NCBI GenBank assembly: GCA_028622995.1
Contig: JAJQJQ010000022.1
Location: forward strand, 1,860,001-1,924,000
From: Panagrolaimus kolymaensis
Lineage: Eukaryota; Nematoda; Chromadorea; Rhabditida; Panagrolaimidae
Length of the DNA: 64,000 nt
Direction: 5' to 3'
In this document: in pieces, positions 41,146 through 64,000 of the stretch
Layout: each line of letters begins with the position of its first letter
Position numbering within the stretch: position 1 is the first letter of the stretch
Notes under the pieces: generated by a model
Database searches by the model: none
Told to the model about the DNA's origin: nothing
What the model saw: only the letters and a program-made list of their open reading frames with translations
Position numbers and translations under genes: made by a program

Positions 41146-42446
41146 TCACATATTTTTTAATGTTCGTCCATCAACTTTTGAAGTATCTTCCCATGTTCGA
41201 CAAATTCCAGTTTGATAACAAATCCATTCAATAAAATATATTACATTTGTACAAGTATTAAACCTTTCTTCATTCGAATTTTCCTTTGTATGATTTTTAC
41301 CACACATACTTCCAAACGAATGAATTCCATGTAAATATGATCGAGGAGGATCATGTCCAATATCCATTTGAACTGGACCACCACTATCACCCTAAAAAGT
41401 CACGATGAAACGAAAGAGGGAAAGTGGAATAAAACAAACCTTGCATACTCCAGGTTGAGATATATTTTGACCATTAGAAGTAAGATGTCTTGGAAGAGTT
41501 CTCATATTTCCTGGAGTCAAATTTGCATTTGGTGTTAAAATGATTGATCGACTAAATCGAAGGTTTGGAACTCTACCGCGATCTAAAAAGTTGACAAATC
41601 TATTATTTTTAAGCTACTTTTTCTATCAAACTTACTTTCATCTTGTCCAAAACCCAAATTATAAACAGGTCCATTATCGTTCTCAGGATTTATATATCCA
41701 ACACAAATAGGTTTAGTCCTGTCATCAAATATTAAATCATCTTCTAATTCGATGATTGCAATATCACCACCACCATTGCATGATTTATCATTAAAATGTT
41801 CTGGTAGCATCATCTTTCTAACTTTTGCATCTTTCATATCTTTACCATTTGAACATATAGCATCATCCTTCCATAAACATATACCACCATATGAAATTGT
41901 AATTTCTGCATTTGAAACCATTGCACCTTTACATGGAAGTTTAGTTGAAGAATATTTTGATAAACAATGAGAAGCTGTAATTATGTGCCGTGAAGATATT
42001 ATTGTTCCAGTACATATCGCAGTAGTATCTTTAACCAAAGCTATAACCCATGGAAATTGTCCTGGCGATGCTCGAGTTCCCATTGATATTTTTAATCGCA
42101 CTAAAAAAATACAAAACTAATAAAAGCATTTGATTAAAATAAAAACTCACAATTTCCAAAATTAGTTGTTCCACAAATTTTTTGAAGTTCGTTATTTTCA
42201 GTTTTTGTTAATTTTGAAAGTCCAAGAAAATCACCTAAAATTTTTACCATTTCCAACAATTTTCGAACAATAAAAAAAAGCTTGCATACTTGTTTTGACG
42301 ATATATTGTAAATGACCCGGATCAAATTGAGTAAATGTAAGGTTGCCATCCATTAAAACTTTTGTTGATTCAATAAATTCTCCATTATTTCCTTTAACTA
42401 AAAAAACAACAATAAATAATTTGAGTGATGTAATCAAATCGGCCAT
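41146..42446 (-). CDS. Secreted chymotrypsin-fold serine protease
   Basis: An S1 family protease. Minus-strand exons are 42446-42290, 42234-42151, 42100-41636, 41582-41440 and 41391-41146, giving 364 residues. A signal peptide is evident (MADLITSLKLFIVVFLVKG). The catalytic triad is complete: H125 (TASHC), D193 (GGGDIAIIEL) and S286 (GDSGGP). The position equivalent to chymotrypsinogen 189 is G280 (PGVCKGDSGGP), so trypsin-like Arg/Lys specificity is not expected. The activation site is unusual: in place of R-IVGG it reads RLK-ISMG before TRASPGQFPW. It is presumably a digestive or immune extracellular enzyme. A broken copy lies at 44498-44815. Confidence 0.88.
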
Positions 42447-42618
42447 GGCAAGAATTCAAAGAAAAATAAATAATTTAGAGACTTAGTAAGAAAGTAAAAT
42501 TTGAATATAATTAAAATACAAAAAGAAGAATTCCTTGGCAAGCAGACATTATCGAGATAATGCTATTTAAATAGTAATTTTTCAAAATCAATGTTTATTG
42601 ATTTCCTTTCTTTTTGCT

Positions 42619-42924
42619 AGCCCTTCCATTTACCAGGGGATTATATCATAATATGAGTCCCGATTGCTTGAATGAAATGAGATGGTGGAAATCAAAAGTT
42701 GATTTTGTACAAAATGATATTTTAATTTATATAAAGAAATTACAAATGATCAAATTTCACCTGAAATGGAAGACGTTTTAAAAGACTTCAAAATGAAGGA
42801 AATATCATTGAATATTATTTGAAATCTTGGACAAGACCAAATGGCGAAGGAAAAGATGATCTCGATGAGGTTCCAAATTTAAAAGGAGTTCCAGAAAGTT
42901 ACCATTGGAGGTCAAAAGAACATC
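42619..42924 (+). pseudogene. Broken inverted copy of the unknown gene at 45.1-45.6 kb
   Basis: The plus strand here is about 85-90 percent identical by eye to the coding strand of the minus-strand gene at 45070-45627. It begins with AGCCCTTCCATTTACCAGGG and ends near GGTCAAAAGAACATCC. LPFTRGLYHNMSPDCLNEMR is still readable, then single-base losses near 42720 and further on throw the frame out. The first 75 codons of the parent and its start are missing. Confidence 0.8.
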
Positions 42925-43507
42925 CAACTTCAGCAAACATAACAACAATCACACATCGAATCGTCAAAATCACATACCTGTTTTTATAAAGTACTAAAAC
43001 TTAATTAAAAGATTTCTTTGTTTTGAAAAATCTTTTAAAATCAACATAAAAAAAACTCTCAAAAGATGAGGTCATAGAAATCGATAAACTTCTTTTGAAA
43101 TCCGTTTTTGTTTTTCAAAAATAAAAAGACTTTGGAAAGGTAAAGGTTAAAAAAAAGGTTATTGATTTGTAGTAAATTTCATTCTGGTGTTTTGATAAGG
43201 AGATATGGAATGCTATATTGTTTGGGCGCCAGCAACTAATCCATTGCTGCAATCGAAATAACAACAACAAAATTGGTTTTATGATCTTTTAATGAGAAAC
43301 CTAACAAAGCTTGCAAAATACTCTGAGGCAATGTACACCAAACAAAAGGTCAAAAAATTTTGCTTTCTTTTCTATAAAGATTGGTCGTCTACATATTAGA
43401 AATTTCGTAGTTAATTCTTGCTTAGTACTTTGTTAAAAAATTTCATCGTTATTAAATTTATTTTTCATAAGCAGATGCTTTAATTTTAGGTTTTTACTCA
43501 TCTAAAC
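42925..43507. other. Spacer before the broken F-box-like gene
   Basis: AT-rich, with no clear feature except a TTTTAG acceptor at 43486-43489, 18 bases before the ATG of the next gene, which is a likely trans-splice site. Confidence 0.4.
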
Positions 43508-44396
43508 ATGGCAAAGCTTTATAACGTTGCTAATCCTCGTCGCCAAAATTTTCCGTTTCGCAATTCTATGATTGACTATGTTTTAAAAAATATAAATTTG
43601 GACCATAAAGAAAAATTAGCCCAAACCTGTAAACTTTTTTGTTTTTATTATCCATATGATATGATTCTCGATGATTTACAATTGGGTTACAATAATACGG
43701 TTTTTGAAATTAATGAAAAATCTATTAAATGTATCACAACGGATGAATTAAAAAATTATGGAAAAAGGATATGGTTAAAAAATAAATTATATACAGGTCC
43801 AGAGAATATTGGTTTATTATCAATGGTTATCATTCGATGCACTGTAAAACATCTCCATCTTATTGCTAAAATATCATTAAAGGATTTTAATTTGTAAACC
43901 GAAGCAAAAACAGTTGAATATTTGTTGATGAATAAAAGTGTTGATATCGAAGGAAATTTTCTTTTTATTGAAGATATTCTTGCACAAGTTCCAAATGCAA
44001 ATTTAATTTGGTAAAATTTGAATTCATAAATAATATAAAAATAAGGAATAATTTATTTAGCATTATTGAAACTCATTACTTCAAAAACAATGGAACGTCT
44101 TCTTTCTTTGAATGATAGGAAACAAACAATTAACCTACTTGAGTTATGTGGCATAAAAGCGGAATTAAATGTTTCAAAATTCTACGAATTCTTACTTGTA
44201 AGCTTTTTTTTGTTTTTAATTTATAAAATCTTTAGCTTAATTTCAGATAAATGCGACACCAGGTGCTTCAATTTATATTCATTTCGAAGATGATGACACA
44301 GAAAAAAAATTTCAAGCTGATCTTATTAGAAAAATTGAAGATTCTAACCGTAAAGAAGAAAAACCTATATATGAAATATATCAATCTTTTCTTTGA
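43508..44396 (+). pseudogene. F-box-like gene with premature stop and frame break
   Basis: Related to the partial gene at the left edge of the window. Exons would be 43508-44010, 44061-44197 and 44247-44396. The N-terminal motif is RRQNFPFRNSMIDYVLKN and the last exon reads ASIYIHFEDDDTEKKFQADL, both like the paralogue. In exon 1 a TAA at 43895-43897 interrupts the frame, yet family-like sequence continues in the same frame (TEAKTVEYLLMNKSVDIEG). The first junction is also out of phase: exon 1 leaves two bases, whereas exon 2 needs one. Two independent lesions suggest a decayed gene. A truncated 129-residue product from the first ATG is possible. Confidence 0.65.
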
Positions 44397-44497
44397 TAAT
44401 GGGAAAAGTTTAAAATCAAAAAATTTTCATTAGAATTTTTATAATATAATCTAATCCTTCCTAGCAATTGTGATTGTGTGTGTTTAAATAAAACTAA

Positions 44498-44815
44498 CCT
44501 TGCATACTCCAGGTTGTGACTTATTTTCACCATCAGAAATAAGATGTCTTGGAAGAGTTCGCATATTTCCTGGAGTCAAATTTGCACTTGGTGTTAAAAT
44601 GATTGAACGACTAAATCGAAGGTTTGGAACTCTACCGCGATCTGAAAAACCATGAGGTGATCATTTATTAATTTAAAGTTACTTTTATATCAAACTTACT
44701 TTCATCTTGTCCAAAACCCAAATTATAAACATGTCCATTATCGTTCTCAGGATTTATATATCCAACACAAAAAGGTTTAGTATTTTCATCAAATATTAAA
44801 TCATCTTCTAATTCC
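44498..44815 (-). pseudogene. Fragment of a serine protease gene
   Basis: A near-identical copy of the fourth exon, the preceding intron and the end of the third exon of the protease at 41.1-42.4 kb. It lacks the Ser-containing last exon and the His and Asp regions. The homology ends abruptly at CTTCTAATTCC, where it is joined to sequence (CATTATCGAGATAATGCT) that otherwise lies about 100 bases upstream of the intact protease start. Confidence 0.85.
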
Positions 44816-45069
44816 ATACATTATCGAGATAATGCTTATTCATAAAACTTCTAACAAACAATATGTAATGGCAGTTTAGAACATTTTAAGAGAAAAATTT
44901 CCAATCGTTTTTGTTAGCTAAATGGATTCATATAATGAAATCTTCCCTGAAAATGAGAGAATTTCCAAGAAAATAAAAAATTTTTCTTTTTTTTACAAGA
45001 AATGACAAAATGTGATAATAACCGATCTACTTAAACAATTTTATTAAAAACTATAAAAAATCAACAAAT

Positions 45070-45627
45070 TCAGTTTTTATTTTTCCATAAATCTCTATGT
45101 TCTTTTGACCACCAATGATGACTTTCAGGAACACCATTTAAATTGGGAACATCATCGGGATCATCTTTTCCTTCGCCATTTGGCCCTGTCCAAGATTCCA
45201 AATAATCTTCAATAATATATTCTTCTTTTTGAAGGTCTTTTTTGTATTTTTCTATTTCATTTGAAATTTGATCTTTTGCAATTCCATTGTATAAATTTAA
45301 AATATCGTTTTGAACAAATTCAACTTTTGATTTCCACCATCTCATTTCATTCAAGCAATCCGGGCTCATATTATGATATAATCCCCTGGTAAATGGAAGG
45401 GCTTTTCCAAATGCAGTTGGAAAATGGTTTTTAAATTCTTCTTTTTCTTGATCAGAAAGTTGAGATTCTTCTGAATAAAGATAACTCAATCGAGCAAAGT
45501 CATATGAATTTTCATAAAATCGTGAAACATCATTAAAATCTGGTTTAGGAACTTTGGAAAGAAAATTTATAACTCCAAGAAAAGTTTTTTTAGCTGATGA
45601 CATTTCAGATTCATCCGATGATGACAT
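45070..45627 (-). CDS. Unknown 185-residue protein
   Basis: A single open exon preceded by TTTTTAG and AAA directly before the ATG, as in trans-spliced genes. I do not recognise the family. It is hydrophilic, with no signal peptide or membrane segment. It has a Ser-rich start (MSSSDESEMSS), an aromatic region (RFYENSYDFARLSYLY), a central LPFTRGLYHNMSPDCLNEMRWW, and a C-terminal ESWTGPNGEGKDDPDD then PNLNGVPESHHWWSKEHRD. The His- and Trp-rich end is the most conserved part in the broken copy at 42.6-42.9 kb. Cytosolic location is inferred. Confidence 0.65.
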   Translation of the reverse strand: MSSSDESEMSSAKKTFLGVINFLSKVPKPDFNDVSRFYENSYDFARLSYLYSEESQLSDQEKEEFKNHFPTAFGKALPFTRGLYHNMSPDCLNEMRWWKSKVEFVQNDILNLYNGIAKDQISNEIEKYKKDLQKEEYIIEDYLESWTGPNGEGKDDPDDVPNLNGVPESHHWWSKEHRDLWKNKN

Positions 45628-46777
45628 TTTCTAAAAATAAAGAATAATTAGATTAACGCAGTAGTAAAGTGGTTGTATTGAAAGAAAAAATAATGAGAGA
45701 AGAGGCACGATTAAAAGAATATCCTGACCAATAACAGAGGTGAGTGAAAACCTGGTGATCTAATATATCACACAGTTTGCAAATAGGTAAAATAAGAAGA
45801 AAAAAAATGGAATAGTTAAATTTTAAGTGAGTTGGATCGAAAGGAATTGAAAAATATTCATCTCTTATCCGGGTTGCAAGGAATTTCATATGCTTTTTAA
45901 TTTTCCGTGCACCAAGCCTTTAATAAATTTCTTTGTAAATGAAATTTATTCGTTTTTATTAAACTTTGTTTTATGCATAAAAAAATCCTTTTTATGCTTC
46001 AATCAATTTGAGGACAAAGGTCAAAAGTCATTTTTGTTGTTGAAAGGGTAAACAAAAATTTCACGATAAAAATCTAAAAAAAGGAAAAAGTTTACACACA
46101 AACAAAGAAAGCAAATGCTGTAAAAAAAGATCACATTAGCAATGATAAATGTTGTAGAAAAAAAGCGCGTTAAAATACTTATATGTGAAAAAAAGAAAAA
46201 AAAAAGCGAATGAACGATTCAAAGAGGCAATATTTGTAGTTTGTTCGCAAAATAAAAGACAGAAAAAGCTCTTTACAATGTGAAAGAAAAAATGCAAAAA
46301 GAGAAAATATGTTTCCAAACACATAACACTTTTTTAGATAGCATAAAATGCACGAATGAAAGTTTATTTTTGTTTGTAATAAATTGCTATTCCCCTGCCA
46401 AAAAAAATCAATTTATAAAACATAAAACAAGATGTTTGTATTTTTTATTTTGAATTAACAACAATGTGTAAATAAAAAATACTTATGACGTTTTCTTATA
46501 GTTTCAAGAAATAATTGAATCAAAGATACTGTAGGCCTAAATTATTACCCTTTCCCTTTAATACATTGAAAGTTGTAGTTTTTCCTCTCTTTTTAATTGG
46601 ACGCTTTAATTTTATCGATATAAAATTAAGCAAGCTCCACCCCATCTTTAACACAACTGCCACATACATATATGTTTAACAATTTAAAAAATTTCATTTA
46701 TTTGATTGTTTAAACGTGCGTTTTATTTAGTCTATGTTTAATAGAAAGAAAAAAATTCTTATTTACAATTTTTTTAG
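45628..46777. promoter_or_regulatory. Divergent promoter region of the unknown gene and the DUF4781-like gene
   Basis: 1.15 kb of AT-rich DNA between opposite starts. No repeat or gene is visible. The right edge is a TTTTTTTAG acceptor (46776-46777) abutting the ATG of the DUF4781-like gene. Confidence 0.45.
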
Positions 46778-49700
46778 ATGTCATCAAAAGAAGAATGGAA
46801 GCCAACTTTGGTTAAAGAATGTTCAAATCCTAATATAAAAAGCAATCGCTCTACTTTAGATTGGAATAGCAAAGAAGTTAAAGAATGGAAAGCGAATGCA
46901 ATCAAAATGCAAGAAGCACATGTAAAAGATAATAGTCGAACGATGTGGTATGCATATTTACCGGAGGAAAGAGACGCAATTGAGTTAAGAATTTTAATAG
47001 CTCTTTATGGTATAAGAATGCCAAAAGTAAGTTTTTAGCTATTATACCAAAAAAATATTATATGTTAAAAAATAAACTCTTTTTTTTACTCGAATCGCTG
47101 TATAAAAAATGATGTTGTCCAATTCGAATTGTCAAGGGATAAATTCCTGAAAGTAGCTTGAAAATTCAATTTTAGTGTTTACAAATTGTGACTTTTTTTA
47201 AAATTCTACCTCATTTTCTTGGTGCCTTTTTAAAAAATAGAATTGCAAGTAAAATTTTCTTAACTTTTTTTCTGATCTAAATTCTTTACTTTTTGTCTTT
47301 TCATCTCAATTTATTTTAAGAAAATTTGTGCATGGTAAAGAAAGATAAGCATAAAAAAAATCATTAAAAAAATGAGAGTCAAAAAAGCAAGCAAAAAAAA
47401 TAATTAGGGTTTTTTTGGAGAAGAAAAAATTGTTTTATTACTTTCTTTTTTGTCAAGTTCTTTGCTGCTTCTCTCTGATTGAAATATCACAGATAAGCTT
47501 TACTTCAATTTGGGCAACAAAAATTTTTTTGTTTCCTGTAATTTTTAATGAGGTTTTTTTGTCAAAAAAAATATAAGCTTATGATAAAATGAGTTATAAT
47601 TGTGAAAAACGGGCACAGTTTTTATACAAAACTTTTGTGTCTGCTGCATGGATACAAAATACTTCTTTTTGAAGGTAGTCAAATATTGAAAAAATACAAG
47701 TCTTTTGGTGTCTCAATTACAGTGACGGACAGTGTTGTCACCGCCGCCAGCTCGCCGCCAACATTTGACCTCATTTTTTGTTTTAAAGATATCGGTATTT
47801 TTTTATTTGGCTTATTGGAGCAAATAGATTGAACATTTTCGAGTATTATGCTTTTTAAATCTCACAATTTGGCCTCATAGTTCTTGAGATATTTAAACTC
47901 GAAGCAATGAAATTTTTTTTTTGGCGGCGCGCCGCCAAAATTTGCATTTGAACATTTAAAATTTTAATATCTCAAGAACTATGAGGCCAAATTGTGAGAT
48001 TTAAAAAGCATAATACTCGAAAATGTTCAATCTATTTGCTCCAATAAGCCAAATAAAAAAATACCGATATCTTTAAAACAAAAAATGAGGTCAAATGTTG
48101 GTGGCGAGCTGGCGGCGGTGACAACACTGGTGACGGAGACTTTGAAAGATTATTTTGTAAAAATTACTCAGCCAAAAAACTCAAACCGCTTCAGAGCTTA
48201 TAAAAATATTTATAGGATAAAACGAAAGCATCGCCATCATGCCCATTAAAAACTTATAATCATGAAGAGCGATTGCATGCAAAAAAGGTTAAGAAAGCAA
48301 TAATTAAACAATCAGGTACCCCAGAAAAAATATATTTTAATGTTATTTATGTTTCACATGCAACAATAGGTGAAGATGAGAAATTGCTTGCTACAGAAGA
48401 ACCGGGTATGAATTCTACGTTTTTTAGTACTATAAAAATTTATAAGTATCTTTAGTTTTTATTGTTAAAGGTTCGGAAAGACCTGTGGATCGAAATGGAA
48501 GACGGTTTTCTGATATTGAAGATTATAGAAATAACAATGATTTACCTGCTGGAGGAATGATTTTACCTGAAAATGGCTCATATAATCCTAATAATTCTGA
48601 TGATAAAACTCAGCTCATCGCTGACGAAACTCCAAACTCATCAGGTTTATGTAGAGTTAAAGCTGTCACCGATAACATTGCAATGGTTGGTGGTATTGTT
48701 TTAAGTGTAACTGGTTTGGTTTTATGCGCTCCAGCAGGTGTATTTTCTGCTGCTGTTGTATCTGCAATTAGTACTGGATCTTTTTATGGTGGAGCTATTC
48801 TTACAGCTTATAGTGTTATATCGTAATTTTATTAATGATACTCGCGAATAATTATAAAGTTTTTAAGATCTGGTGCAAGCATTTATAACAAGGTCAATAG
48901 AGGTGATGACGATGAAAGCATTAGAACAGAAATATTTACAATTTCCACGGCATTATTATCGCTTTATACTCAACGTCTCAGTAGTATAATGATAAAAGGA
49001 GCAAGACAAGGACAAACATTAGCTCAAACCATTGAAGGTAAATAAAAAAATAAATTTAAATCAGTTAAATAATAAATATTTCTTAAGGATTAACTAAAAT
49101 TGAAAGGAAAATATTTCCTTTACTGAATTACATTAAAGTTATTACTTTGTTTTCTGGTGTAACTGGATTATGTTCAGCATTTGTGGAACTTTGGCGAAAA
49201 AAGGAGAGGTCGTGGTTTGATTATTTTCAATTCAGCATGTTACTTTTTATGACCTCAAATACATTAGCAAAGCCATGGACTCTTAAGGGCCTTTTTGAAT
49301 CAGAACAAATAAAATGCTTGGATGAGATAAAAAAGAATCTTACAGTTAGTTTAAACAAAAAAAAAGATAAGAATCTTTAAATAAAAATTATAGAAAGATG
49401 AATCTAAAAATGAATTTGATAAAATGAAAGACTCCCATGAAACTTCTGATAAAAAAGCTTACATGATTCGAAATTTGAATCAAATAGATAATAAAAATGA
49501 ATTTTTTGAATTGATAAACAAAACCAATAGCGTTGTGGAATGTACAGCTGATGGATTAGTGGTGAACAATAAAATTGATATTCACCCAAAAGCTTATAAT
49601 GCAATTGGACGAGATGTAATGTTAATTAGACTTCAACAAGCTGAACAATATAAAGAAGCATCATTTCAAAAAAATATGGAAGATGGTTTTAAAGATTTGA

Positions 49701-51003
49701 TTATTTCAAATCCAGAAAAAGCAGGGGAAATTAAAAACCAGATAAATGAGATTTCTAAATTGCCACCAAATGAAAGGTATGATGCTATGAAAAAAGTATT
49801 TTACGAATTTGGTGGTAATGAAGGGCAATTTGATCAACAATGGAGCGCAGGAGATAAAAAATTCATTCAAGATATGAATAAACAAATTAATAAAACGGTA
49901 GATAATATGCAAAAAGGAATTACGAATCAACATCAGCTTGATGATTTTAAAGAATTACAAAAACTTAGCCAAAAACAAGCAATGGGAAATATTACTGCTG
50001 AAGAAAAAATTAAATTACAAGAAACTTTGGAAAAATGTGCTGAGCATCGTAAAGAACGCTTTTTTCAAACAACATCAGATTATAAAACAATGCCCGATAA
50101 AACTGTGGAACAATGGAATGATGATCTAAAGCAATTAGATGTTGATTTAAGCAATGGCAAAATTACAAATGAAAAATATATTTCACAAAAGCAAACCATT
50201 GAAGAAAGCAAGCAAGAAGCTCAAGAATATTTAGATGATATTAAAACATTTAATAATGGGCAAAGTGAACGCCTTTGTTATCGAATAGATGTTGAAAAAG
50301 TTAAATTTAATTTACAACAAATTTATGAACGCACAGATTATGAGAATATTGAAATAAATGGCAAAAAATTATTTCAAAATATGTCCATACCTGATTATGA
50401 TCGATTAAATCGAGTTATGAATGATTATGGAGATAATAAAACATCTTTAATGAAAGCAGCAACCCAAATAGCACAAGATCCACAATTTAGAGGCCTTGTT
50501 CAAAAACCAAGCGATATTGCAAGTATCACGGAAGCAATGATTGAAATGAAAGTTTGTAATTTATCTTTTGAATTTTATAAAAATTAAATTTTTTTTAGAA
50601 AATGGAAGGTATTAAAAATGCACCCGAATATTATCAATCTTTGGCAACAGGAAGTGGAGAAAATTACACAAAATTTAAAGCGGAATTACAATCAAGACTT
50701 GGTGCGGTTAATGCTTTACCAGCTGAAATTCAAGCTCAATGGCCTTCATCTCTTTCAATGGGATATCATCATTGGAAGCATCAAAACGATTTTGGAAATA
50801 ATCCTGTCACAGTAGAACAATATTTTAACGATCTTCCAAATTCACTTTTTGATTCAAAAAATGCAACACTTGGAACTTTTTCACAAACAGGAACTTTTCG
50901 ACAAACATATTCTCAAACTTTTGGAACTCGTTTTCATGTTGGATTTACAACGGGTGAATCCGGAAGGCTTGCTTCTCATTTTGCTAAAAAAGATACATTA
51001 TAG
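46778..51003 (+). CDS. DUF4781-like protein of about 926 residues
   Basis: Exons are 46778-47026, 48216-48405, 48471-48822, 48868-49037, 49088-49344, 49394-50551 and 50599-51003, all in consistent phase. A TTTTTTTAG acceptor directly precedes the ATG. The N-terminal part (AIELRILIALYGIRMPK, then PVDRNGRRFSDIEDYRNNND and AGGMILPENGSY) and the Gly/Ala-rich hydrophobic stretch that follows (residues about 215-265) resemble Pfam DUF4781, known only in eukaryotes and of unknown function; this is from memory. A second hydrophobic stretch (VITLFSGVTGLCSAF) suggests membrane association. Residues of about 450-830 are long charged helices. The C-terminus is Ser/Thr/Gly-rich. Alternatively, the 1.2-kb first intron may contain two more exons (about 47594-47673 and a short one ending at 48157), now split by a MITE. 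The SecA-like gene follows in the same orientation. Confidence 0.7.
47730..48129. mobile_element. Palindromic hAT-type MITE in the DUF4781-like gene
   Basis: A 400-bp element beginning CAGTGTTGTCACCGCCGCC and ending with its reverse complement. It is flanked by exact 8-bp duplications GTGACGGA (47722-47729 and 48130-48137). It is a nearly full-length palindrome, with the arms meeting at GGCGGCGCGCCGCC around 47931-47944 and only a few mismatches, so it folds into one long hairpin. CAGTG ends plus an 8-bp duplication fit the hAT superfamily. Near-identity of the arms implies a recent insertion. Confidence 0.88.
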
Positions 51004-51443
51004 TTTTTTCTAAAACTAAGATGCGCCATCATTATTGTTTAAAATTTGTTAAAAGTAAAATAGCTATATACAAAATTTTCAGCACCGTTAAGGTGTTTTT
51101 AGCAAAGTTAGGTATTGTAAATTTAAATCAACTACGATATTAAGTAATACAGCTATATTAAAATAGACTTTTTTATAAATTAAATTTTTAAAATATTTTG
51201 AATAACAATTTTAATGGAGTGGTGTATTGGTAATTAATTTTTTTAAATAATTTAATCAAATTTTTTAAAACATCGTTTATATCTTCTTATTTTAGATATT
51301 TGAATAAAGCTTGATTTTAATTTTTGTTATTTTTGTAAATTTATGGTTTTCTAATACCGTTTATTATTTTTTTTATTTAATCCTTTTTATTATCTTTTGT
51401 CTTATAATTTTTTAGACTGGTAAAGAAGCCGCTCATACATAAC
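51004..51443 (+). other. Intercistronic region with trans-splice acceptor
   Basis: 440 AT-rich bases between the DUF4781-like stop and the SecA-like start, ending in a pyrimidine-rich tract and TTTTTTAG (acceptor at 51414-51415), then a 28-base leader before the ATG. This layout suits spliced-leader addition, either in a loosely spaced operon or from a separate promoter. Confidence 0.5.
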
Positions 51444-54400
51444 ATGGCGCATCAATATACGGAAGAAGAGCTATTATTAGCCATCAGTGACGCAGTTAAG
51501 AATAATGAAAGATTAACTTGTGAAGAATTGAAAGACCAATTATTCGGCAAAAATGCATCTTCCATATCTTCACAATTAACTTTGCATATTCAAAAAGAAA
51601 TAACCAAAAAACATAAATTTATTTGCCGATTTCTTTTAAAAAATCATTTGTTAGGAAAATTAAAAGCTGGCTCAAGCGAATTTATTAAAAAATTTATTGA
51701 TTTGCGAAAAAAGCATCAAATAATTGAAGCTTTTAACGATGAGAAAAAGTTATATCGTCGATTGATGTTATTACAAAATCAAAAATCTCTTGGAAGTTTA
51801 TTGGTGGAATGCAACAGGGCATTTGATCGATTAAGAGAAAAATTTGCTTCATCCGAAAATGAAGCCAAAATGAGAAAATGGTTGGTGGATTGGTTTCGAA
51901 GTTCGTTTATGACATTGGATAGTTTTGAAAAATTTTGTGAATGGAATCGCAACAATCCGAATTTGAAAGTTTTCAAAAATTTATTAACATCGATGAATGA
52001 AAATAATGCAAAAAGTCTTTTGAAAATGGCTAATACAATTAAAACTGACAATTTTATGGAACCTCAAAAATTAAAAGGAATTTTGGATGTATTTTGTATA
52101 AATCCTACAGTGGAAATTGAAGATGAAATTCTCAAAGTTAAAGGACATTTAATTTATTTGAGTCAAATGAAGCTCAAAATCGAAAATTATGAAAAGAAAC
52201 GTGTGAAACATGTTTGCATTTTTGCTGAGGATGCTTGTATTATTGATTGTGATTTAAATACTAATTTTTGGAGTGGAATGAATTTCACAATAATTTCCAA
52301 TAAAATTTTTGTTAAAGGTGCACATAAAATTATGCTTTCTGGAAGCGGGCATAACCCTGGAAATAAAAAAGCAGCAAATTCTTATGATTCCCAATATAAT
52401 GGTACCATTGGAGATGATGGTTCTCCTGGTGAATCATCTGGAAATATTGCATTATTAACTAAAGATTTTATTAATCCTTCTAATCTTTCAATCGAATTAA
52501 ATGGTGGTCGTGGAAAAGATGGCGATGATGGAGGTGATGGATGCAATGGCCGAGATGGAGCTGGTGTCACTGAACAAGAAATAGAAAATTTTCATTTTTA
52601 TAGTAGTTTATATCGGGATTCTTGGTCAAGTTTTGATAATTATTCTCCACCAAATATTTGGACAAAAACTGAAGGAAATAGTTCATCAGGAAATTACATC
52701 CTTCGAAAATATAAAGATCAAAATGGAAGAAAGATGACTTATTCATTTGCTGGAGATAAAGGTTGGACATATACCACTTATGAAATTTATTTTATCATCG
52801 AAGGCTCTGATGGAACTTCGGGTAGTAGTGGAGGAAGTAATGGAATTGGAGGAGAAGGAGGTTATCGTGGGACCGCAACAATACAAAACCCCGAAACTGG
52901 TGAAAGCTTTAATGTTAATATCATTCAAAATGCTGGACAAAGTGGCGAAAATGGAAAAGTCGGTAAAAGTGGCAAATTTGGAATAAATGGGAATGATTTG
53001 GCTTTAATTGATCGAAGCGCAAATGAAACTTCCAAACATATTAAAGGCGATTCAAATCATAAATTATCTTGGAGTAATGTTTATGAAGCTGAATATTATA
53101 GTCGATTAAATGGTTATATTCGATATGAGCAAAATAGAAAAGCATGTTTCATTAAATTTGGTGTGGGCGAAAAAATTGATACAAGTGAGCGACGATCTCA
53201 AAAAGCAACTGAAAGAATTACAAGAACTCGAAATTCCAAAGCAACTGCAAAATCATCCATTTTTATTGATGAAATAATTAATGAAGCTGTAGAAATATTT
53301 GGGCAAGAAAATTCATTTTTAGCCGATGCTTGTGATGATGCAACTGAAAAGGCTAAAGATGAAGCAGAAGATGAGGAAGAAGAGGAAGCTCAAGAAAATG
53401 TTAGTGAAGAAGTTGTTATTTTAAGACAAAGGGAGGATACTCCAAAGCTCAGCAAATATACCCCAGATAATGAAAAAATGGTAAATTCTTTAATTAAATA
53501 ATTTCTTTCTCTGAAATTACTTTAACATTTTATATTTCAGAAGCGTCCAACTTATACTTCCCAAGAATTTATTAATTATGTTAAAAGTCTTGGTCGACGC
53601 ACAAGTTATGGAAAGAACGCTCAATACATGTTTGATTTATTTACCATTGAACTTAATCCAGATGAAATGAATTCAATTGTATTGTCATCATTATTTCATC
53701 AAAGTCATTTTCGTCAAGCCATACAAAGTCCATTTACCATTGCCCTTATTGGCGCGTTACAATCACGTTTAATTAATGGAAAAAGTTTTGAAGAAATTAA
53801 ATTATTTACGCAAGATTTTGAATGGAGGCGAATTAAAAAAATAGCTACAACAAATTTTCGGAAAGAATGTACTAACTTCATTTCAAATTTTAATGCTGCT
53901 AAAACCAAAGTGGAAATTTTTATTAAAGATGGAAATAAAACCCATTTTGGAATAAAACCTTGCAATTTGAGCGAAATTCTTGAAAAATATAATGATCCAA
54001 ATGAAATTGAAAAAATGACGGAAGACTTTTTTGGAAATTATGTGGATTGCAAAGTTAATGATGAATTAATGGCAGAAATGAATTTATTTTTGCTTCAAAT
54101 TGAAAAAAATGACGCATTTCTTGGATTTTTGAATCATTTTGTTAAAAAAGATCTTCAGTGGACGGATAGAAAAGAAGTGGAAGAATATATGACTCAATTA
54201 TCCGCCTGGCATATTGAAGAACAAAAACGAAAAAAAGACGACGACAAAGAAAAAAATGAAAAGATGCGTTCACAAAATGATAGGGAACAGAAATTTCAAC
54301 AATTTCTTGAGTGTATTGTTAAAGAACATGAAATTTGGAATGAATCATTAAAACCCATAGTAAAGGTAATTTCATCAAACAAAGAATACATTACTCGTTT

Positions 54401-57400
54401 TGGTGATCCAATTAAACTTGATGAAGAAGGGTATAAAGCTTCGGCGAAGGCTAAACTAACTATGCTAAAGAATTTGATAACTTCAAAACCTATTACTGAT
54501 AAAGATATTGATTTGGCAAATTATGTAATACGAATGTATTTTCTCTCTAAGGAAATTTTAACCTTTCAAAAAGATTTATACAATTACAATCTTGTAATGC
54601 ATAAAGAAAAAATTAGGCAGCATGCTCCATTCAAACTCGTCGAAAACTTTGGTGAATTAATTGTGGCTAAAAAACAAAATCCATTACCAACTGAAACAGC
54701 TGAATGTCAAGAATATATGCAAAAATACACACTTTCGTGTTCAACATTTCGTCATTTATTATCACAAACATTGAACATTAGAATTTGCACTTATAAACAA
54801 AAAGGTTTTCAAACTTTGGAATTAATGGAAGATTTGAATGCTCGCTCTGAACATGTTGAAATGATTTGGTTGCACGATGATAAAACTGTCAATGGAATTG
54901 CTGCAGATAACGGATTCCGTGACCTTATTGCTGCACAACAAAATTTATTACATAAACACAGAGTTTCATTAAATTCTGAATTAACTTCTTATAAAAATAA
55001 TGATTTTAAAAACCACGATGACATTCACCAATTCGCAGAATTTTATCCTGCACCTTTACAAAATTCAGTTATTGAATGGTTGAATAATTATTGGGCTTTA
55101 ACAAAAGATGTAAAACTATTAAAATTATTATTTAATCGATTTTATATTGATGGATGCCATATTACAGTTTTTGAATTACAATTTATTCTTTTATCCTCAT
55201 CACGTTTAATGAATATTTATCATTGCCAAATTGATTATTTATTGCTTCTTTTATCCTCCGTGTCACAAAAAGAGTTTATTGATGTTATTGGATATACTCG
55301 AATTCAATATCATCAAAGTTGTCGTTTCAAAACCACATCCAAAATCTTTTCTGGATTTCGATTAATTCCAAGCTCACGATATAAAGCTCTTTTCGTTGTT
55401 AAATTAGAATCGCATAATAGTGAAATTTGTGAAGACGATTTATACAAAGTTATTTTAATGCTTCAACATGCATCGAATGGTTCAGAACAATTATTTAAAA
55501 TTGATATGAATGAATGGATTGAAATCGCGAAAAAACAAAAATGGAATGAAATTAATTCCCTTTTAAAAGAATATGGCTCTATTGGATATTATCTTGGTGT
55601 TTTGGATAATTATGGGTTATATGAAGAAGAAAGAAGCATGCAAAAAATATTTAATGATGCTTTAATAATTCCTGAAAAATTTATTGCGTGGTTTACTAAT
55701 ATGATTGTTAATGAAGGAGATAAAGAATCTGAAGATTTTGAATTTCTTAAAAAGGTATTACAAAAGGGCAATGATTATCCCGGGTTAATTGATAAACAGG
55801 TAAAACATCAACTTATCACGGATGAAATAAATCAAGCGAAGCTAATGCATTGGATACTAAATAAAAAAATTACAAATGAACCATTCAGTATGGCTACGTT
55901 TTCTACACCTAATGATAGAAATGTTGAAGATTTGATTAAAAAAATTATTGGGTTAAAAGATGATTCACAACAAAAAGAAATTCGTAAAAAAGAGCTACAA
56001 AAAATTGGTGAATTATTAACATCCAATAACATCAAAAATAATAATATGAAATATTTAAATAAATTTGATGAAAAGTTATTTAAACTTCACAAAAAGCGGC
56101 TTCGAGATACTCAAAAAATGGCTATTCTTTGCACCGTTGAAAGTGGAAAAAACGTTTTGGAGCAAGTTAATACTGGTGAAGGAAAGTCATTTATTATCGC
56201 AGCGATAGCTTGCATTCGATGTAAAACTGGGCATAGATTCGTTGATGTAATTACAAGTTCATCGGTTCTGGCTCAACGTGATTCTAAAAGTATGAAATCG
56301 CTGTATAAAGCTATGGGTCTCACAGTTGCTGATAATTGTAGCGAAGATATTGAAGAAAGAAATAAAGCATATTCTGCTGATATCGTTTATGGCGATATTG
56401 CTAGATTCCAACGTGATTATTTACTTCATACATTTTATAAAAAACCCATCCTTGGTGATCGCGTTAGAGATGCTGTAATTGTTGATGAAGTGGATAATAT
56501 GATTTTGGATAACAGTAATAATATGCTTTATTTATCTCATAGCGTTCCTGGAATGAATTTATTTGATTCTTTATTGATTTTTATTCAACAGCAAGTTTTT
56601 TCTCCCATTTATTCTGGGGATAAAAATAATATTGATGAAATGCAAGCTAAATTTGATAATTCTGCAATTAAAAATAAAATTCTTAGTGATTTATTTGGTC
56701 ATTTTTCAATTGCTGATTTAAGTGCCATATGTCATGGTTTGCTTCACCAAAGAATTCAAGACATTTATGAAAAGTTGATAAATGGGCATATTGTTGATAA
56801 AGATGGTTATTTGATCATTTATCGTTATGACCAAATTAATGATATTTCAAAAGCTTTAAATGCAATCTCAAATGATATTGTAATAAAGGTTGGTTTTAAC
56901 GCAAATAATTATCGTGTAAAGTTCATAAAATTTTTAGATTCAAACATGTTTTCGAATTATTTTGTGTCGTGAACGCATTATTAAACTTCCAGCATATTTA
57001 AGACCCTTTGCAAAGCTTCACCTTGATACTTTGATTGAAAATTGCAAAAATGCTTATTTTTTGGAAGCTAATACTGGGTATGTAATTGATGTGGATCATA
57101 CCGGAAAAATTCAGTCTTCACTTGAGCAAGTTGTAACCATTATTGATCAAAATACTGGAGCGGATTTAGCAAGTTCACAATGGACTGGAGGCTTACATCA
57201 ATTTTTACAGCTTAAACATGGCTGCGGTTTATCCCCTATGAGTTTAAAAGCTGTATTTATGTCAAATATATCTTTTTTAAAAGGTAGAGACAATACTTTT
57301 AAAAAAAATTGTGTTTCATTCTAAAGTCACTTTTTTTAGATTATAAACGAATGAATGGTTTAAGTGGAACTTTAGGATCAGAAGAAGAAAGTCAAACATT

Positions 57401-60400
57401 GATTGATATTTATGGCGTGGATTTGATTAAAATTCCTACAAACAAACCCAAAATTTTCTATGAGCATGTGCCAGTTATTGCGACAGAAGAAAATGATTGG
57501 ACTAAAAATATATATGACGAAATTTGTGATCAAGTTATTGTGCAACGATCAGTTCTTGTTATTTGTGAAGATATTCGACAACTTAATCAGGTTTTAAGTG
57601 GAATTTCGACTATATATAATAAAGAAGAAAATCCGCATAAATTTGTAAAAAATTGTTTCCAAAACATGGTAGTTTATAAACGCGAACATGATGAATTTAA
57701 TTTTGAAGACGACAATAAAAAGTTTCAAACATCTCAATTAATTATTGCAACAAACTTAGCTGGACGTGGAACTGACATTAAGTTAAGCGATGAATTGGCA
57801 AATAATGGTGGATTGCATGTTATTACAGCATTTATGCCAAAAAATCGACGTATTGAAGAACAAGCATTTGGTCGAGCAGCGCGTAGTGGTCAACCTGGAT
57901 CCGCACAAATTATAGCATTATCAGAACCAACCGAAATTTCAATAAAGCCATCAATTTTTCAACTTAAAACTTATCGAGATAATGCTGAGGTTCATCGATT
58001 ACAATCTCTTAAAAGTTTTTATGATTTTCATACAGATATTGAAGAAAAATGCCTTGAAAAATTTAGAAAATATTGTGAAAAAGTTTTGGCAAGCGCTTAT
58101 TCATCATCCACGAGTTCTTCAAAAAATGGTGAAACTTTACCATCGATTAATCAAGTAATTTATTTCACATTATTAGATTTATGGGCTTTATGGTTGGATG
58201 AAAAATCTCCTGAAATTTCACAATGTTCAAAAGAAGGAGGAACAAAAGAAGTTAAAGAAAAGCGAAAAAATGAAATCATTGATTCAGTGGATAAATTTTT
58301 ACATGATCATCCATTCGATAGCTTTGACAGCGCTAAAAAATGGTTAAGAAATCCTCAAGCTTTAATTATAATTGGTATTATTCAAATGTGCCATAATAAT
58401 GGTTTCGCGGATGCTGAAGAAAGTTTTGATAAAGTTCTCGCAGAAGGTCATGAGTTTGCCGCTGAAGTTGAATATTATAAAGGTTGTATGCGAATGAATA
58501 AATTTGAATCAATGAGAAAATCATCAAATGATTTAAAAATATCAAACCCAACAAATTTCAAAGCTGATATTCCCTCAGCTTTAGAACATTTTATTAAATC
58601 CAGAGCACTATTTAAAAATCGAATTTTACAAAAGCAAAAAGAAGCTTCAGTAATTGTAAAATTAATTGAAAAATTCCCTGAAAATAATCCAAAGACTTCG
58701 GGCTTTGCAAATCAAATAAAAACAGCTACAAAAAATATTGAATTAATTTTATCCAATATTGATTATCTCTTGGGTGAACCATGCCATGAAAAAATGTTTG
58801 TTAATGAGAATATTAACGAAAGATATTCTAAATTAATTTATGATGTCATGTGCCGACAAGGAATTATTGGACCGGAATTATTATGCGAACATGAAAAAAT
58901 GGATGAATGGCAATTAGAACCATTTAGAAATAAATATAAATGGCAAAGAAAACAAATAAACGTAAGTAATATTGCATTTCTGTAAATTACAAAAAACTTG
59001 CTTTATGTTTATTTTATAGAGCCTTGTGGATTCAATAATTAGCAGCCCGCAATCTCAGTCATTCGATAATGATATCGTTTTTAATAAATGGCTAATATAT
59101 GAAAAGGCAGAACTTTCAAATCGAGCTAATTTTTGGCAAGAAATGGAACAACAAAAAGCTTTTTACAATACAGAAATGTTCATCGCAATTCATAATGATA
59201 AAAAGGTTTCAAAAGAAATCCATGATTTGTTAAACCAATTAAACCCCTTTGTTATTCCCAAAGAAGAGTTACGGTATAAAGTTCGATATTCGGGTGAAAA
59301 GGAACTTGGAATTCTTTATAAAACTAAAGCAGTAAATGCGTTAATTGGAGATAATGAAAATCTAAGCAAAAATTTACAACATGAAATTTCTGAAGGAAAT
59401 ATCAAACTAGAAAAACTTGCTGATATTTTAATTACAAATGAATCCATGGAATTTTTTAGTGAATTTGATGGAATTATTCTTGAAGATTTTATGAAATTTT
59501 TTAATCTTGATTTTATTGGAGCAAAATGGATTTTAAATTCACTTCGAGATAAAGGATGTTTAGAATTACAACAAATTCAAATGACTCGATGCACATTAAA
59601 TGAAACGAAATGGAATGAATTAGTTCGAATTCATTTACCTGAGAATGCACCAGAACCATCGAATAATGAAGAAATGGGTAAAAAATTACTTTTTAAACAT
59701 TCAGGAATTTTACAACAAATAAAAAATAATTCAAAATTGCTTAATATTAGCGTTGGTGTTATTGAGCATTTGTGTAATTTGAGTAAAGAGGATGCACAAA
59801 AATTTTATGATTATTTAATAAATCAAGAAATTCTCGAACCATATCTTTATGAAATTTGGAGAATTAACTCAAAACTTGATTGCTCACATTTACCTTCGTG
59901 TATTTCATCGAAGATTGATGAATTTTTAGCTGATCGTTTTGCGTATTCTTTTGCGTTGGAAGATCTTTGCAGTTCTATTGAAGCAACTCATGATCGACTC
60001 AATTGTGAACCACATCAAATATTTTTACCTGAAAATCCTTTCGCGGATCTTTTTGATGATTTCATTGATGCTGGTTTAGGAATTCCAAAGAGAATTACAT
60101 CAAAAAATGACGATTTGGATTATTTTGATTATGATGATTTTAAGCATTCTGATTTTATCAAAGAAGTTATATATTCAAATCGGCCAAAATTGCAAGACCA
60201 AACTTATTATCATTTTGAAATAACATCTTTTGCTTCGTATGTTTTAAAACAAAATATTCAAATTGATTCGGATATTCGAGCATTAATTGATAATGGCCTT
60301 AAAATAATTGTCGCTAAAAAAGAAGAAAAAGTTGGATCCTGGATTACAAATAAGATAATATCTATGGCTTCAACATGTTGGAATAAAATTAAATCTGCTG

Positions 60401-62419
60401 CAAATGCTTGTTGCAATTTTGGTTATTCTGTTGTTAAATTTTGTTGTCAGTTACCAGGTAAAACATTTTTTAAAGTATTAAAATACAGATTGCCCGATGC
60501 ATTTTTATGAATTCCAAAGGCGTATTCAATAAAATACTCTAAACCACTAAGATGATAAAAATTTAAAAATTTCGAACTTCAAATTCGTGGTAGCTTTCAG
60601 ATATTTAAAAAGTTGATAATGACAAAACGACTATTTTTTTTATCAAAGCTAATTATTTTTTTAGGGAAAATTTATGGTGCTGTTTCAAGTGTAGTTGGTC
60701 CATATGTAAAACAAGCGGGAGATTTTATTATTAAACTAGCTAAACCATTAATAAATTCATCAATTGGTAAAGTAGTGATAGGTGCCACTAAAGAAATACT
60801 TAGTGAAGTTAAAGAAACAATAATCGATATTGGATATTTGGCTTTGGATGCAGCAGAAGCAACAATAAAATATACAAAAAAAGCTGGTAAATATGTTTAT
60901 AACAAAGCTGCTGAATTAGGAAATGAAATTGCACAAAGTAAATTAGGTCAAGCAATTAAAAATGGTATTAGCGATGGAATAAATGCAATAAAAACAAGTG
61001 AAATTTGGAAAATGGCTGCTGAAACTGCAACATTTTTATATTCAAAAATGAGTGAATATTGTACAGCCATTTCGGAAAGTTATAAATATTATAATCAATG
61101 TCGAACTATGGCTCGACGATTAGTAAATGAAAACCGACTAATGGTTGATGAACATTCAATATTAATCACATTTCATGGAATAAATAAAGAAGAAACTAAA
61201 AAAGATAATAATAAAAATGAAATAATTAAGGTTAGCTTTTTTATGAAGAAATAAAAAACAAACAATCCCAACTTTTTTTTTAGAAGATTCAAAAACATAT
61301 TGAAGACCATCGACCCCACATTCAATCCGCAATTCAACCACTTATTGAAACAAAACTTAAATCTCACCCAAAAATTGAATCAGCTATGGTTGAAAAGCTA
61401 TTATCAAAAGGTCATTCAATTAAAACATTTAAAACTGAACTTGATAATCTTTTGAAATTTGGTGCATGGCAAAAGCAAACAGAATATTATAAAATTTTAA
61501 TAAATAGTGAAGGAGAAGAAGACGATGATGTTGATTTGGGAAATGTTACTTTTATGGAACATGTTTCAAGTAGATTTTACTTTTTGGAAGATTCAATTGA
61601 TGCAATATTTGAAGAAATTGAAAAATTACGTGAAGATGAAGGTTATGATTCGGATAATACTGAAATCGAGAAAACATCGAAAGGTAAACTTGGGGTTTTT
61701 AAGAGTCCAGCAAAAATAAAAGAATATTAATAAAATTTTTAGATATTTCCAACTTGAAAGATTTGCTCATGGATTTCACAAAGGTAGCAATCAATCAATC
61801 TTTCATTCAACCAACAACTTCCTTGATTTTATCCTTTTATGAAAGTTTGAAAGATAAACAATTGCCACCCAGTGCTTCCGATGCATATTTTAATCATGAA
61901 GATAAAAGTCTCAAACAAGCTTTAACCGATTACAATGAAACAAATAAATCAAAACAAAAAGCTGTATTTTTATTTAAAGAATTAATTCAAACCATTCATG
62001 CTTGCCTTGAAATTCAACCAATAAACACTAACCTTTTAAAAACGGCAATCAAATATGGTTATCCATTACCCATTAGTGTTGCGCCTAAAATTACTGAAAC
62101 AATCAATAATTGTTTAATGAAAATGAACATTTATAAATCTGGAGTTTTGCTAGAAATTTTGCATGGTGATAAAAAAATTATCTCTCGAAAATATGGTGAT
62201 GGTAAAGCTAAATTAATTTTACATCCTAAAAATGGTCGTTTATTTATTTGTCAATCAGATTATTTGTCATATGCTGGAATACATGATGCTGTAATGGATG
62301 ATGTTAATAGTGAAAAGGCTTATTTCCATGAAAGCTTGACATCGTATTTAAAAATTTTGAGACAACACTTCCCAAAGCAAGGTGAATCACTTAGAGAAAT
62401 TTTATTACAAAATTTATAA
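51444..62419 (+). CDS. Giant SecA-motor protein, about 3,477 residues
   Basis: Eight exons in consistent phase: 51444-53480, 53541-56888, 56938-57283, 57340-58961, 59020-60457, 60665-61230, 61284-61683 and 61743-62419. The first 290 residues are helical. Gly-rich tracts follow (RGKDGDDGGDGCNGRDG at about 353-373, GSDGTSGSSGGSNGIGGEGG at about 452-471, and another near 495-517), then an acidic tail of exon 1. Residues of about 1520-2100 form a SecA-type ATPase: Walker A TGEGKS (1557-1562), ITSSSVLAQRD, ADIVYGD, Walker B VDEVD (D1661), NGLSGTLG (about 1915), TNLAGRGTDI (2048-2057) and QAFGRAARSGQPG ending at 2097. The substrate cross-linking and two-helix-finger segments are not obvious. The C-terminal third has Cys-rich and amphipathic helices (about 2890-3060). 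Bacterial SecA drives protein export through SecYEG; the function in an animal is unknown. Spliceosomal introns and host-like composition exclude contamination. Confidence 0.85.
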
Positions 62420-63264
62420 TATAATTTTTTTTTCTATGTGCTATTTTTTCTTCTTCATGAATTAATTTATCATGTCTTTTTTTTTAAAATTATTTTGTAA
62501 TACCAATATCTTGAAACTATTATTCGCAACTAATTTTTATAATAATATAAATCTGTTTTTTCATAAATAAAAAGAAATTTACTTTTAGTATTGACTTATA
62601 GTTTTTTTTTTTGATAAGGCTAGGAAATTTCTTCAAGCGTTGTAAATTTATTTGCATGAATTTAAACAAAGCATGTACATACAGACGACAAACGCTTATT
62701 TACCTAATTATTAATATTATAAAATAATAAACTTTGAAGCCTTAGAAAAAATGAGAAAAATAAAATTATTGACTAATTTTCGCATTTTTTTTACAAAGAA
62801 GTTAATATCATTGTCGGTATTGAAGTTAACAATATACATTTTTAATACCAAGTTTGTATCACTTCAAACTTCCATAAATTATCACCGGTAAAATCCTTCA
62901 ATGTTTATTTTTTAAATTACAGTATTTTGACTTTTTTTTTTGTTTGGTCACGTTATTCTTTTGCGTAATTCTTTAATTTTTGGTTACGTTTCAATGCTGA
63001 ATCTAAAAAATGCAAAGTAATTTCTTTCTATTTTAAGCGTAATCATCTCTTATTGTCTGTATTAGTGTATCATTTTTGTTGTTGTTGGATGAATGTGAAA
63101 AAAAGATGAACATTTGAATCCCTCCTCGCATTTTAAAAATATTTCAAGCATTTTGGTCAATCTTTGATTTAAAAAAAAATAACGCTCATTTTTTTAGCGT
63201 GACACTTTCTTAATAAAATTAAACATATTTCACAAGTTTTCTGAAATAGTTTTATTCCACTTTT
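62420..63264. other. Spacer between the SecA-like gene and the Srsx-type receptor
   Basis: About 845 AT-rich bases holding the 3' flank of the SecA-like gene and the promoter of the receptor gene. I see no gene or repeat. Confidence 0.5.
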
Positions 63265-64000
63265 TTGAATAACAAAATAATGGCTTCAAATCCAATAATT
63301 TTATCACCAACAAATGTTCCATTTATTTTGGATAATTTATCTGTGCTTAATTATGTTAGATATTTTTTGGCTGTGATTGCAATTTCGGGAAATGGATGGT
63401 TTATTTTTATTGCAATTAAATTTAAAAATTTTCGAAAATCTCAATGTAATCAACTTATCGCTATGCAAGCTGTAGCGGATTTACTCATAGGTTTCTTTTT
63501 TTCTTTCTCTCAAGTTTCATGGTGATTTTTTTACAAAAAAATGGAAGTTTAAAATTTTTTTGAATTTCAGGGATTGGTTATTTTTCACGAGCAACTCAAG
63601 CTTCATTATCGCTATCAAATGGAATTGTAGTGTTCAACAAAACAACATGCTCCTATTTAGCTTTGATTCAAGGCTTTGGAACTTTTTCGGAGCAACTCAT
63701 TGTATTAGCATTAGCATTGGATAGACTTTGGGCAATATGGAATCCAACAAAATATTATAACATGACCTCGAAACTTTTATGCAATATTACTTTAATTGGC
63801 TGCATTATTATATGCCTGGGATATATTTTTGTAACTTTTTATGGTTTACATCCACTTGATGAAACTTATAATTGTTCAGCTGGATCTTCTGCAGGGCCTT
63901 TATTTCGAGCATATTTAATGATTTTTGGTGTTATTTGTGCTGCAGCTATTTATCGTAAATTTACTCTTTCTCGCCACATTTAAAAACCGTTTTTTAGTAT
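63265..64000 (+). CDS. Srsx-type G-protein-coupled receptor, 3' end missing
   Basis: A rhodopsin-like nematode chemoreceptor. Exons are 63265-63490, 63571-63954 and probably 63998 onward, running off the window. The first intron uses a GTTTCT donor; splicing there rebuilds VADLLIG/IGYFSRA, the family TM2 motif, whereas reading on gives a stop after SQVSW. TM1 contains AVIAISGNGWFIF followed by KFKNFRKSQCN. TM3 ends in LALALDRLWAIWNPTKYY, the Srsx version of the DRY region. C-x-C positions (TTCSYL and YNCSAG) allow the usual extracellular disulphide. The model reaches TM5 at the last visible exon. Expression in sensory neurons is expected from the family. Confidence 0.82.

Follow-up and report, generated by a model that had tools for sequence, protein, structure and literature searches.

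A giant SecA-type motor gene adjoining a DUF4781 gene in the nematode Panagrolaimus kolymaensis: a candidate two-gene module for polypeptide threading

In a 64,000-nucleotide stretch of the Panagrolaimus kolymaensis genome (GenBank assembly GCA_028622995.1, contig JAJQJQ010000022.1, positions 1,860,001 to 1,924,000, forward strand; the whole stretch is called the window), a gene for a giant protein with a SecA-type motor lies directly downstream of a gene for a hydrophobic protein with a DUF4781 domain. The linkage of SecA and DUF4781 genes is new as far as the literature was searched, as are the repeated nesting of rotifer motors among nematode ones and the presence of the pair on a single homeolog. 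Tentatively, the pair is read as a two-gene module in which the SecA-type motor would thread polypeptides at a membrane together with the DUF4781 protein, in a conflict-type role. SecA is regarded as belonging to bacteria and plastids. What such a motor does in an animal cell without SecYEG is a question that has become testable: the animal family is large, the motor motifs are retained in it, paralogous pairs evolve under purifying selection, and a candidate for the membrane partner is at hand.

The giant SecA gene extends from an ATG at 51444 to a stop codon ending at 62419. Its eight exons are separated by seven GT-AG introns of 49-60 nt, except for one of 207 nt, and rejoin without an internal stop to 3,477 residues. 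The SecA ATPase motifs follow each other in order along the protein: TGEGKS at residue 1557, VDEVD at 1660, NGLSGTLG at 1916, TNLAGRGTDI at 2048 and QAFGRAARSGQPG at 2085. An earlier note made from the sequence alone had proposed this single spliced gene with five ordered motifs, and both the rejoined exons and the ends of the span agree with it; the adjacent DUF4781 gene at 46778-51003, the most useful mechanistic clue, had been missed. The exons are:
51444..53480, + strand: exon 1, N-terminal region with the Gly-rich domain (about residues 320-520)
53541..56888, + strand: exon 2, middle region and nucleotide-binding domain 1 (Walker A TGEGKS; VDEVD), beginning of the clamp region
56938..57283, + strand: exon 3, clamp (PPXD-like) region carrying W-x-x-G-L-H-Q
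57340..58961, + strand: exon 4, GTLG and nucleotide-binding domain 2 (TNLAGRGTDI, QAFGRAARSGQPG), then a helical scaffold predicted from a relative
59020..60457, + strand: exon 5
60665..61230, + strand: exon 6
61284..61683, + strand: exon 7
61743..62419, + strand: exon 8 with the stop codon, placed by splicing and by the Adineta vaga and Halicephalobus alignments

The 3,310-aa protein of Panagrolaimus PS1159 aligns with its residue 1 at 51444 and continues to 61655 in exon 7 (47-87 % per block), and exon 8 is also covered by aligned proteins of Adineta vaga and Halicephalobus. Because the relatives' proteins align across the exons, the frames joined in this gene model have not come together by chance. 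With its N-terminal Gly-rich domain and central SecA motor the protein fits the size class of about 2,800-4,200 aa of the giant eukaryotic-type secA family; the GxxG pattern of the Gly-rich domain was present in 95 of the 99 listed relatives of ≥2800 aa.

By its sequence the ATPase is SecA-type; all comparisons made put it closer to SecA than to the DEAD-box helicases. Single exon frames, with exon 3 left out, matched the Pfam models SecA_DEAD (3.4e-24), P-loop_SecA (1.7e-11), DEAD (2.8e-8) and Helicase_C (4.4e-5); the spliced motor of 877 residues matched SecA_DEAD at 1.1e-27, P-loop_SecA at 3.9e-11 and DEAD at 1.4e-8. The clamp or preprotein cross-linking model PF01043 (SecA_PP_bind) scored 0.018 on the spliced motor (16.0 bits, below the cut-off of 23.5) and was detected in 5 of 13 relatives scanned (E 0.01). 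NCBIfam ranked SecA models first on the PS1159 orthologue P0001 (1.7e-50; helicase DbpA 0.025), which reached 118.0 bits on the SecA equivalog TIGR00963, short of the cut-off of 800; the NCBIfam scan covered this orthologue. All 24 sequences matched in the PDB by the relative P0132 were SecA, and a 54-row family profile matched E. coli SecA with probability 100 and E 3.2e-46. All four SecA motifs scanned were present in 100 of 120 listed relatives. The clamp-region motif W-x-x-[GA]-L-H-Q, at 349 in E. coli SecA, was found in 108 of the 120 relatives listed for the full-length query and in 81 of the 120 listed for the motor query. A DEAD-box helicase identity, an outcome that would have refuted the earlier note, was rejected: SecA scored above helicases in every comparison made, for the window and for relatives, and the profile scores as well as the relative's fold came out as SecA. 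The note's spliced nuclear gene with a SecA-type motor is upheld.

The structure was modeled for P0132, an incomplete protein of Pristionchus that shares 41 % identity with the window motor; the alignment supplied had 58 rows (predicted local distance difference score 83.9, predicted template modeling score 0.79). In the structural comparison the first 27 rows were SecA, in agreement with Foldseek. The model superposed on substrate-engaged SecA 6itc over 594 residues at 3.3 A and on 5eul over 565 residues at 2.9 A; non-SecA rows extended over the helicase core of about 320-360 residues, the SecA superpositions further. The range superposed reached residue 778 of B. subtilis SecA, where the sequence alignment is of low confidence. 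Fold and profile alignments both pass through the clamp region of the relative. A clamp and a helical scaffold are predicted for the giant on this basis. Separately, a weak Pfam match to DUF3638 (6.4e-4, spliced 3.4e-4, below cut-off) was observed in the motor at 53526-56969, a possible distant link to other large proteins.

The partner gene (46778-51003, 926 aa, seven exons) lies upstream of the giant on the same strand (+), its stop codon 440 bp before the giant's ATG. Pfam DUF4781 (PF16013) matched residues 151-435 at 1.4e-26, with 93.5 bits against a cut-off of 27.9; the C-terminal region in exon 7 had no Pfam match. Two hydrophobic segments are predicted membrane helices, the second of which was below threshold in PS1159 and in Halicephalobus a. 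An acceptor-like TTTTTTAG precedes both ATGs, at 0 and about 27 bases, and would fit an operon with trans-splicing. The 1,189-nt intron 1 contains at 47730-48129 an inverted repeat with 200-nt arms, 93 % complementary and without a gap, which looks like the insertion of a small DNA transposon. The exons are:
46778..47026, + strand: partner (DUF4781) exon 1
48216..48405, + strand: exon 2
48471..48822, + strand: exon 3, first, strongly hydrophobic segment (residues 216-234), within the DUF4781 domain
48868..49037, + strand: exon 4
49088..49344, + strand: exon 5, second, weaker hydrophobic segment (residues 335-353)
49394..50551, + strand: exon 6, without a close copy in the genome (next best 28 %)
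50599..51003, + strand: exon 7 with the stop codon, C-terminal region

The neighborhood of the two families recurs within the genome and beyond it. In P. kolymaensis, 27 SecA_DEAD matches formed 26 loci by our own grouping and 27 DUF4781 matches formed 19 loci. Twelve of the 19 DUF4781 loci lie ≤10 kb from a SecA match, while about 0.04 are expected under random placement. DUF4781 stands upstream on the same strand in the window (C21), in three loci on C2 with 17,015-bp spacing, and on C204, C8 (4.61 Mb), C30, C14 and C34; the genes face each other on C22, C36 and C29. From the SecA side 13 of the 26 loci have a DUF4781 neighbor, one C204 match sitting between two. Seven DUF4781 loci and 13 SecA loci are unlinked, some on short contigs. 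The linked loci include homeologs and tandem copies, so that judged by score and position about four groups are independent. A search for homologues of the partner, with 7,996 candidates scored, returned two proteins, one of PS1159 and I4U23_015470 of Adineta vaga. The A. vaga relative of the giant is I4U23_015471, and the two were taken as neighbors because their tags are consecutive and the longest contig given for both is the same (20,354,754 bases). In Halicephalobus the match of P0004 runs as a single gene model from 46844 to 62377 of the window; P0006 likewise includes most of the partner and P0009 a part. Whether gene models were merged here or the genes are truly fused, the two would be neighbors. 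No DUF4781 relative was found in 64 viral-contig stretches. The pairing of SecA and DUF4781 is unreported in the open-access literature as judged by titles and abstract openings among the matches listed.

Several loci showed features of their own. At C2:8505001-8565000 (L015-L020) a unit consisting of one DUF4781 frame and one giant SecA gene is repeated three times in tandem at intervals of 17,015 bp, and C204 may hold the same array. A frame of 368 aa between the SecA and DUF4781 genes of C30 matched neither family. The SecA_DEAD matches on C57, C111 and C249 have identical score and stop counts and look like copies of one broken gene.

The pair is present on one of three homeologous chromosomes in the triploid assembly:
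42547..63616, no strand: stretch with both genes, absent from homeolog C4, which joins window 42546 to 63617

Homeolog C10 follows the window to 42562, continues with 614 bp of other DNA and resumes from 61152 onward at 96 %, so that no more than the final 1.3 kb of the giant gene is left; this 3' remnant indicates that C10 has lost the gene. The gap in C4 may as well be a loss as an original empty site. Part of exon 2 of the giant occurs once in the triploid assembly (next best 71 %, DNA). Between homeologous paralogue copies (C30-C8, C30-C2, C14-C34) the ratio of nonsynonymous to synonymous substitution rates was 0.12-0.46 in 14 of 15 frame comparisons, the synonymous rate being zero in the remaining one. 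The paralogous pairs are under purifying selection; the window copy itself has no close copy to compare.

Relatives of the giant are widespread. The full-length query yielded 304 proteins at E ≤0.001 among 5,952 candidates, and the best 120 of the 304 include, by name, proteins of nematodes, bdelloid rotifers, flies, mosquitoes, bees, ants, moths, bugs, brine shrimp and Wolbachia (about 3,900 aa). With the motor-length query 1,129 relatives were obtained among 7,987 candidates, the best 120 of which include, by name, fish, an acoel, a ciliate and a fungus. A scan of 84,980 bacterial and archaeal species with two peptide patterns, hence a lower bound, gave at least 13 SecA-type loci from 42 stretches, including Rickettsia, Parachlamydiales and Arcanobacter; 33 stretches of viral contigs gave three. 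Long frames with a SecA motor were also seen in a Cytophagales locus (L032:4022-16606, a 4,195-aa frame with an OTU protease and the SecA motor), in Parachlamydiales (L037) and on contigs of the viral collection (L044, L045).

Giant secA genes of insects and Wolbachia were treated in the wBol1-b paper of 2013, which, in the sections available, describes two long eukaryote-like secA genes and argues for a transfer from eukaryotes (PMC3639933); its main text contains neither 'DUF' nor 'rotifer'. The eukaryotic association module of phage WO lists SecA according to the accessible part of its description (PMC5062602), and a SecA DEAD-like domain is mentioned a single time in the excerpt of a paper on Daphnia. 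No report of SecA in rotifers or Panagrolaimus appeared in the open-access literature, as far as titles and abstract openings among the matches listed go. The earlier note had placed motor giants in a few other invertebrates, which the 304 relatives and the 26 loci of this genome contradict. It had also called them uncharacterized; in the portions of the literature examined no function was found for the giant SecA family, although insect and Wolbachia members had been described in 2013 (PMC3639933).

The relationship between nematode and rotifer members was followed in two trees, in both of which long rows were flagged. Seventy-eight motor rows were hand-picked for a quick tree from an extracted set (236 entries covering >80 % of the profile); the careful tree held 44 motor rows, with N_Globodera and N_Plectus_d dropped and five arthropod/Wolbachia rows as outgroup. 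The window and PS1159 proteins were sister to those of Rotaria magnacalcarata and Adineta vaga (support 100/98), and a larger group (97/91) unites these with four proteins of Halicephalobus. Placing the rotifer label on the tree required 5 changes, a number that held at the 5 % as well as the 95 % mark across 200 bootstrap trees. A single rotifer clade (p 2e-35) and a single nematode clade (p 2e-6) were rejected; for a group of window, PS1159 and Halicephalobus a-d the approximately unbiased test gave p 0.0016, softer than nominal since the group was chosen after the tree had been seen. Rotifer motors are thus nested several times within nematode ones, which suggests exchange between the phyla. 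The same nesting could result from paralogy followed by losses or from a third donor, and the tree does not fix a direction. In the partner tree of seven rows Adineta vaga was nearest by path after PS1159, with weak inner branches and two long branches meeting. A tree that unites the window, PS1159 and two Halicephalobus rows to the exclusion of A. vaga was not rejected (p 0.063), and for this reason the partner tree alone does not show a co-transfer of both genes. If confirmed, the nested tree together with neighboring genes in both groups would be a case of gene exchange between animal phyla.

In the quick tree, Wolbachia rows nest among arthropods. Artemia P0067 shares 77 % identity with Wolbachia P0060, and a protein of Rickettsiales is the partner of Trichonephila P0112 in the tree; both pairings may reflect recent transfer or symbiont sequence within an animal assembly.

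SecA couples ATP hydrolysis to the motion of its clamp and finger and thereby moves polypeptide. Because the motifs are retained and a clamp region and scaffold are predicted, polypeptide threading would be the most economical function of the giant. The predicted SecA-like clamp would thread unfolded polypeptides, driven by ATP hydrolysis, and the giant would likely do its pulling or pushing at a membrane, jointly with the hydrophobic product of the DUF4781 gene, which may take the place of SecY or anchor the motor. The module, probably dispensable, would have its role in a conflict with intracellular microbes and not in housekeeping secretion. Conflict is indicated by association, namely by the variable number of loci, the loss from homeologs, the likely exchange and the domain company of the families. 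The PF14441 domain, a deaminase family, occurs in two Didymodactylos family members among the matches listed, and an OTU protease accompanies the motor in the Cytophagales giant. DUF4781 itself accompanies a Death domain in a snail and HopBF1 in a type III secretion locus of Burkholderia, according to the source passages available. A DUF4781 gene of A. vaga, possibly different from I4U23_015470, is expressed and was lower in space-flown animals, as the accessible text reports (PMC12220480). Altogether, we infer the joint action of both proteins, the polypeptide cargo and the conflict role. A more far-reaching version, in which giant SecA and a DUF4781 channel form a second, Sec61-independent animal translocase, a cassette passed between phyla as weapon or defense against intracellular microbes, is unlikely.

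The giant might also need no partner: as a soluble remodeller or unfoldase of polypeptides it would employ its SecA clamp in the absence of a channel, and the linkage to DUF4781 would be historical. This is possible, if doubtful: no hydrophobic segment of the window giant was above threshold, 13 of the 26 SecA loci have no DUF4781 match within 10 kb, and no partner-like frame was found at the 16 bacterial and viral SecA-type loci, several of which are cut short. Against it stands the linkage in about four groups and two orientations within one genome, seen again in A. vaga and in the Halicephalobus models. A channel could instead be borrowed. Animals possess the SecY homologue Sec61, so that the absence of SecYEG pointed out in the earlier note is only part of the picture, and the giant could work post-translationally as a motor that docks on Sec61, the channel in the membrane of the endoplasmic reticulum. 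The superpositions do include SecA of SecA-SecY complexes (6itc, 5eul, 3dl8, 3din), but many loci in one genome and the loss from two homeologs hardly suit core secretion, and we consider such docking improbable.

About as improbable is a motor moving nucleic acid, a superfamily 2 helicase of SecA ancestry engaged, for example, in antiviral sensing. The shared helicase core, the DEAD and Helicase_C matches over cut-off and the fold rows of RIG-I and eIF4A would fit, whereas SecA outscored helicases in all comparisons made and the clamp-region motif is kept in 108 of 120 listed relatives. Slightly better, though still poor, are the prospects of a selfish toxin-antidote element, one gene harming and the other protecting. 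Its linkage and presence/absence pattern were found, in that the two genes lie close together, are missing on C4 and have left just a remnant on C10, and an exchange between phyla is possible; but no toxin family was over the Pfam cut-off in either gene, the C10 remnant indicates loss in that chromosome, and genus members sequenced as triploids are parthenogenetic according to the accessible part of PMC10374039, which weakens drive. Bacterial contamination or a recent symbiont insertion, suggested by relatives in Wolbachia and Rickettsiales, has a negligible chance and was rejected: the gene has seven introns, its flanks are common to two homeologous nematode contigs, and its nearest kin are nematode and rotifer proteins.

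Outside the pair, the right flank common to the homeologs contains a frame matching rhodopsin-family and Srsx receptors (63564-63983). Beside the pair, 41428-41753 and 44484-44817 form a local duplicate of about 90 % identity, close to where the stretch that the homeologs lack begins on the left, and a tandem repeat array of period 87/168 lies at 24228-24736.

In bacteria, SecYEG is the partner of SecA. Bacterial SecA and SecA2 have the ordered ATPase motifs and, as predicted from the relative, the clamp region and the scaffold fold in common with the giant family; the window giant is about four times longer, and its orthologue scores far below the SecA equivalog cut-off. Planctomycetes and other bacteria contain secondary SecA_DEAD proteins in conserved neighborhoods, extra SecA-type motors like the giant family (PMC4452313); these systems are bacterial with type I secretion neighbors, and DUF4781 is absent from the abstract and outline of that work. 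DUF4781 proteins elsewhere are described, in the source passages available, with a Death domain or HopBF1 and not with SecA, whereas the window partner adjoins a SecA gene. Among the closest known systems is the giant secA of insects and Wolbachia (wBol1_1092, 11,829 nt, in the available sections of PMC3639933), which belongs to the same family and size class; Wolbachia P0060 matches the window giant over the Gly-rich domain and the motor. In contrast to these genes, the window gene stands in the nematode-rotifer branch, has true introns and adjoins a DUF4781 gene.

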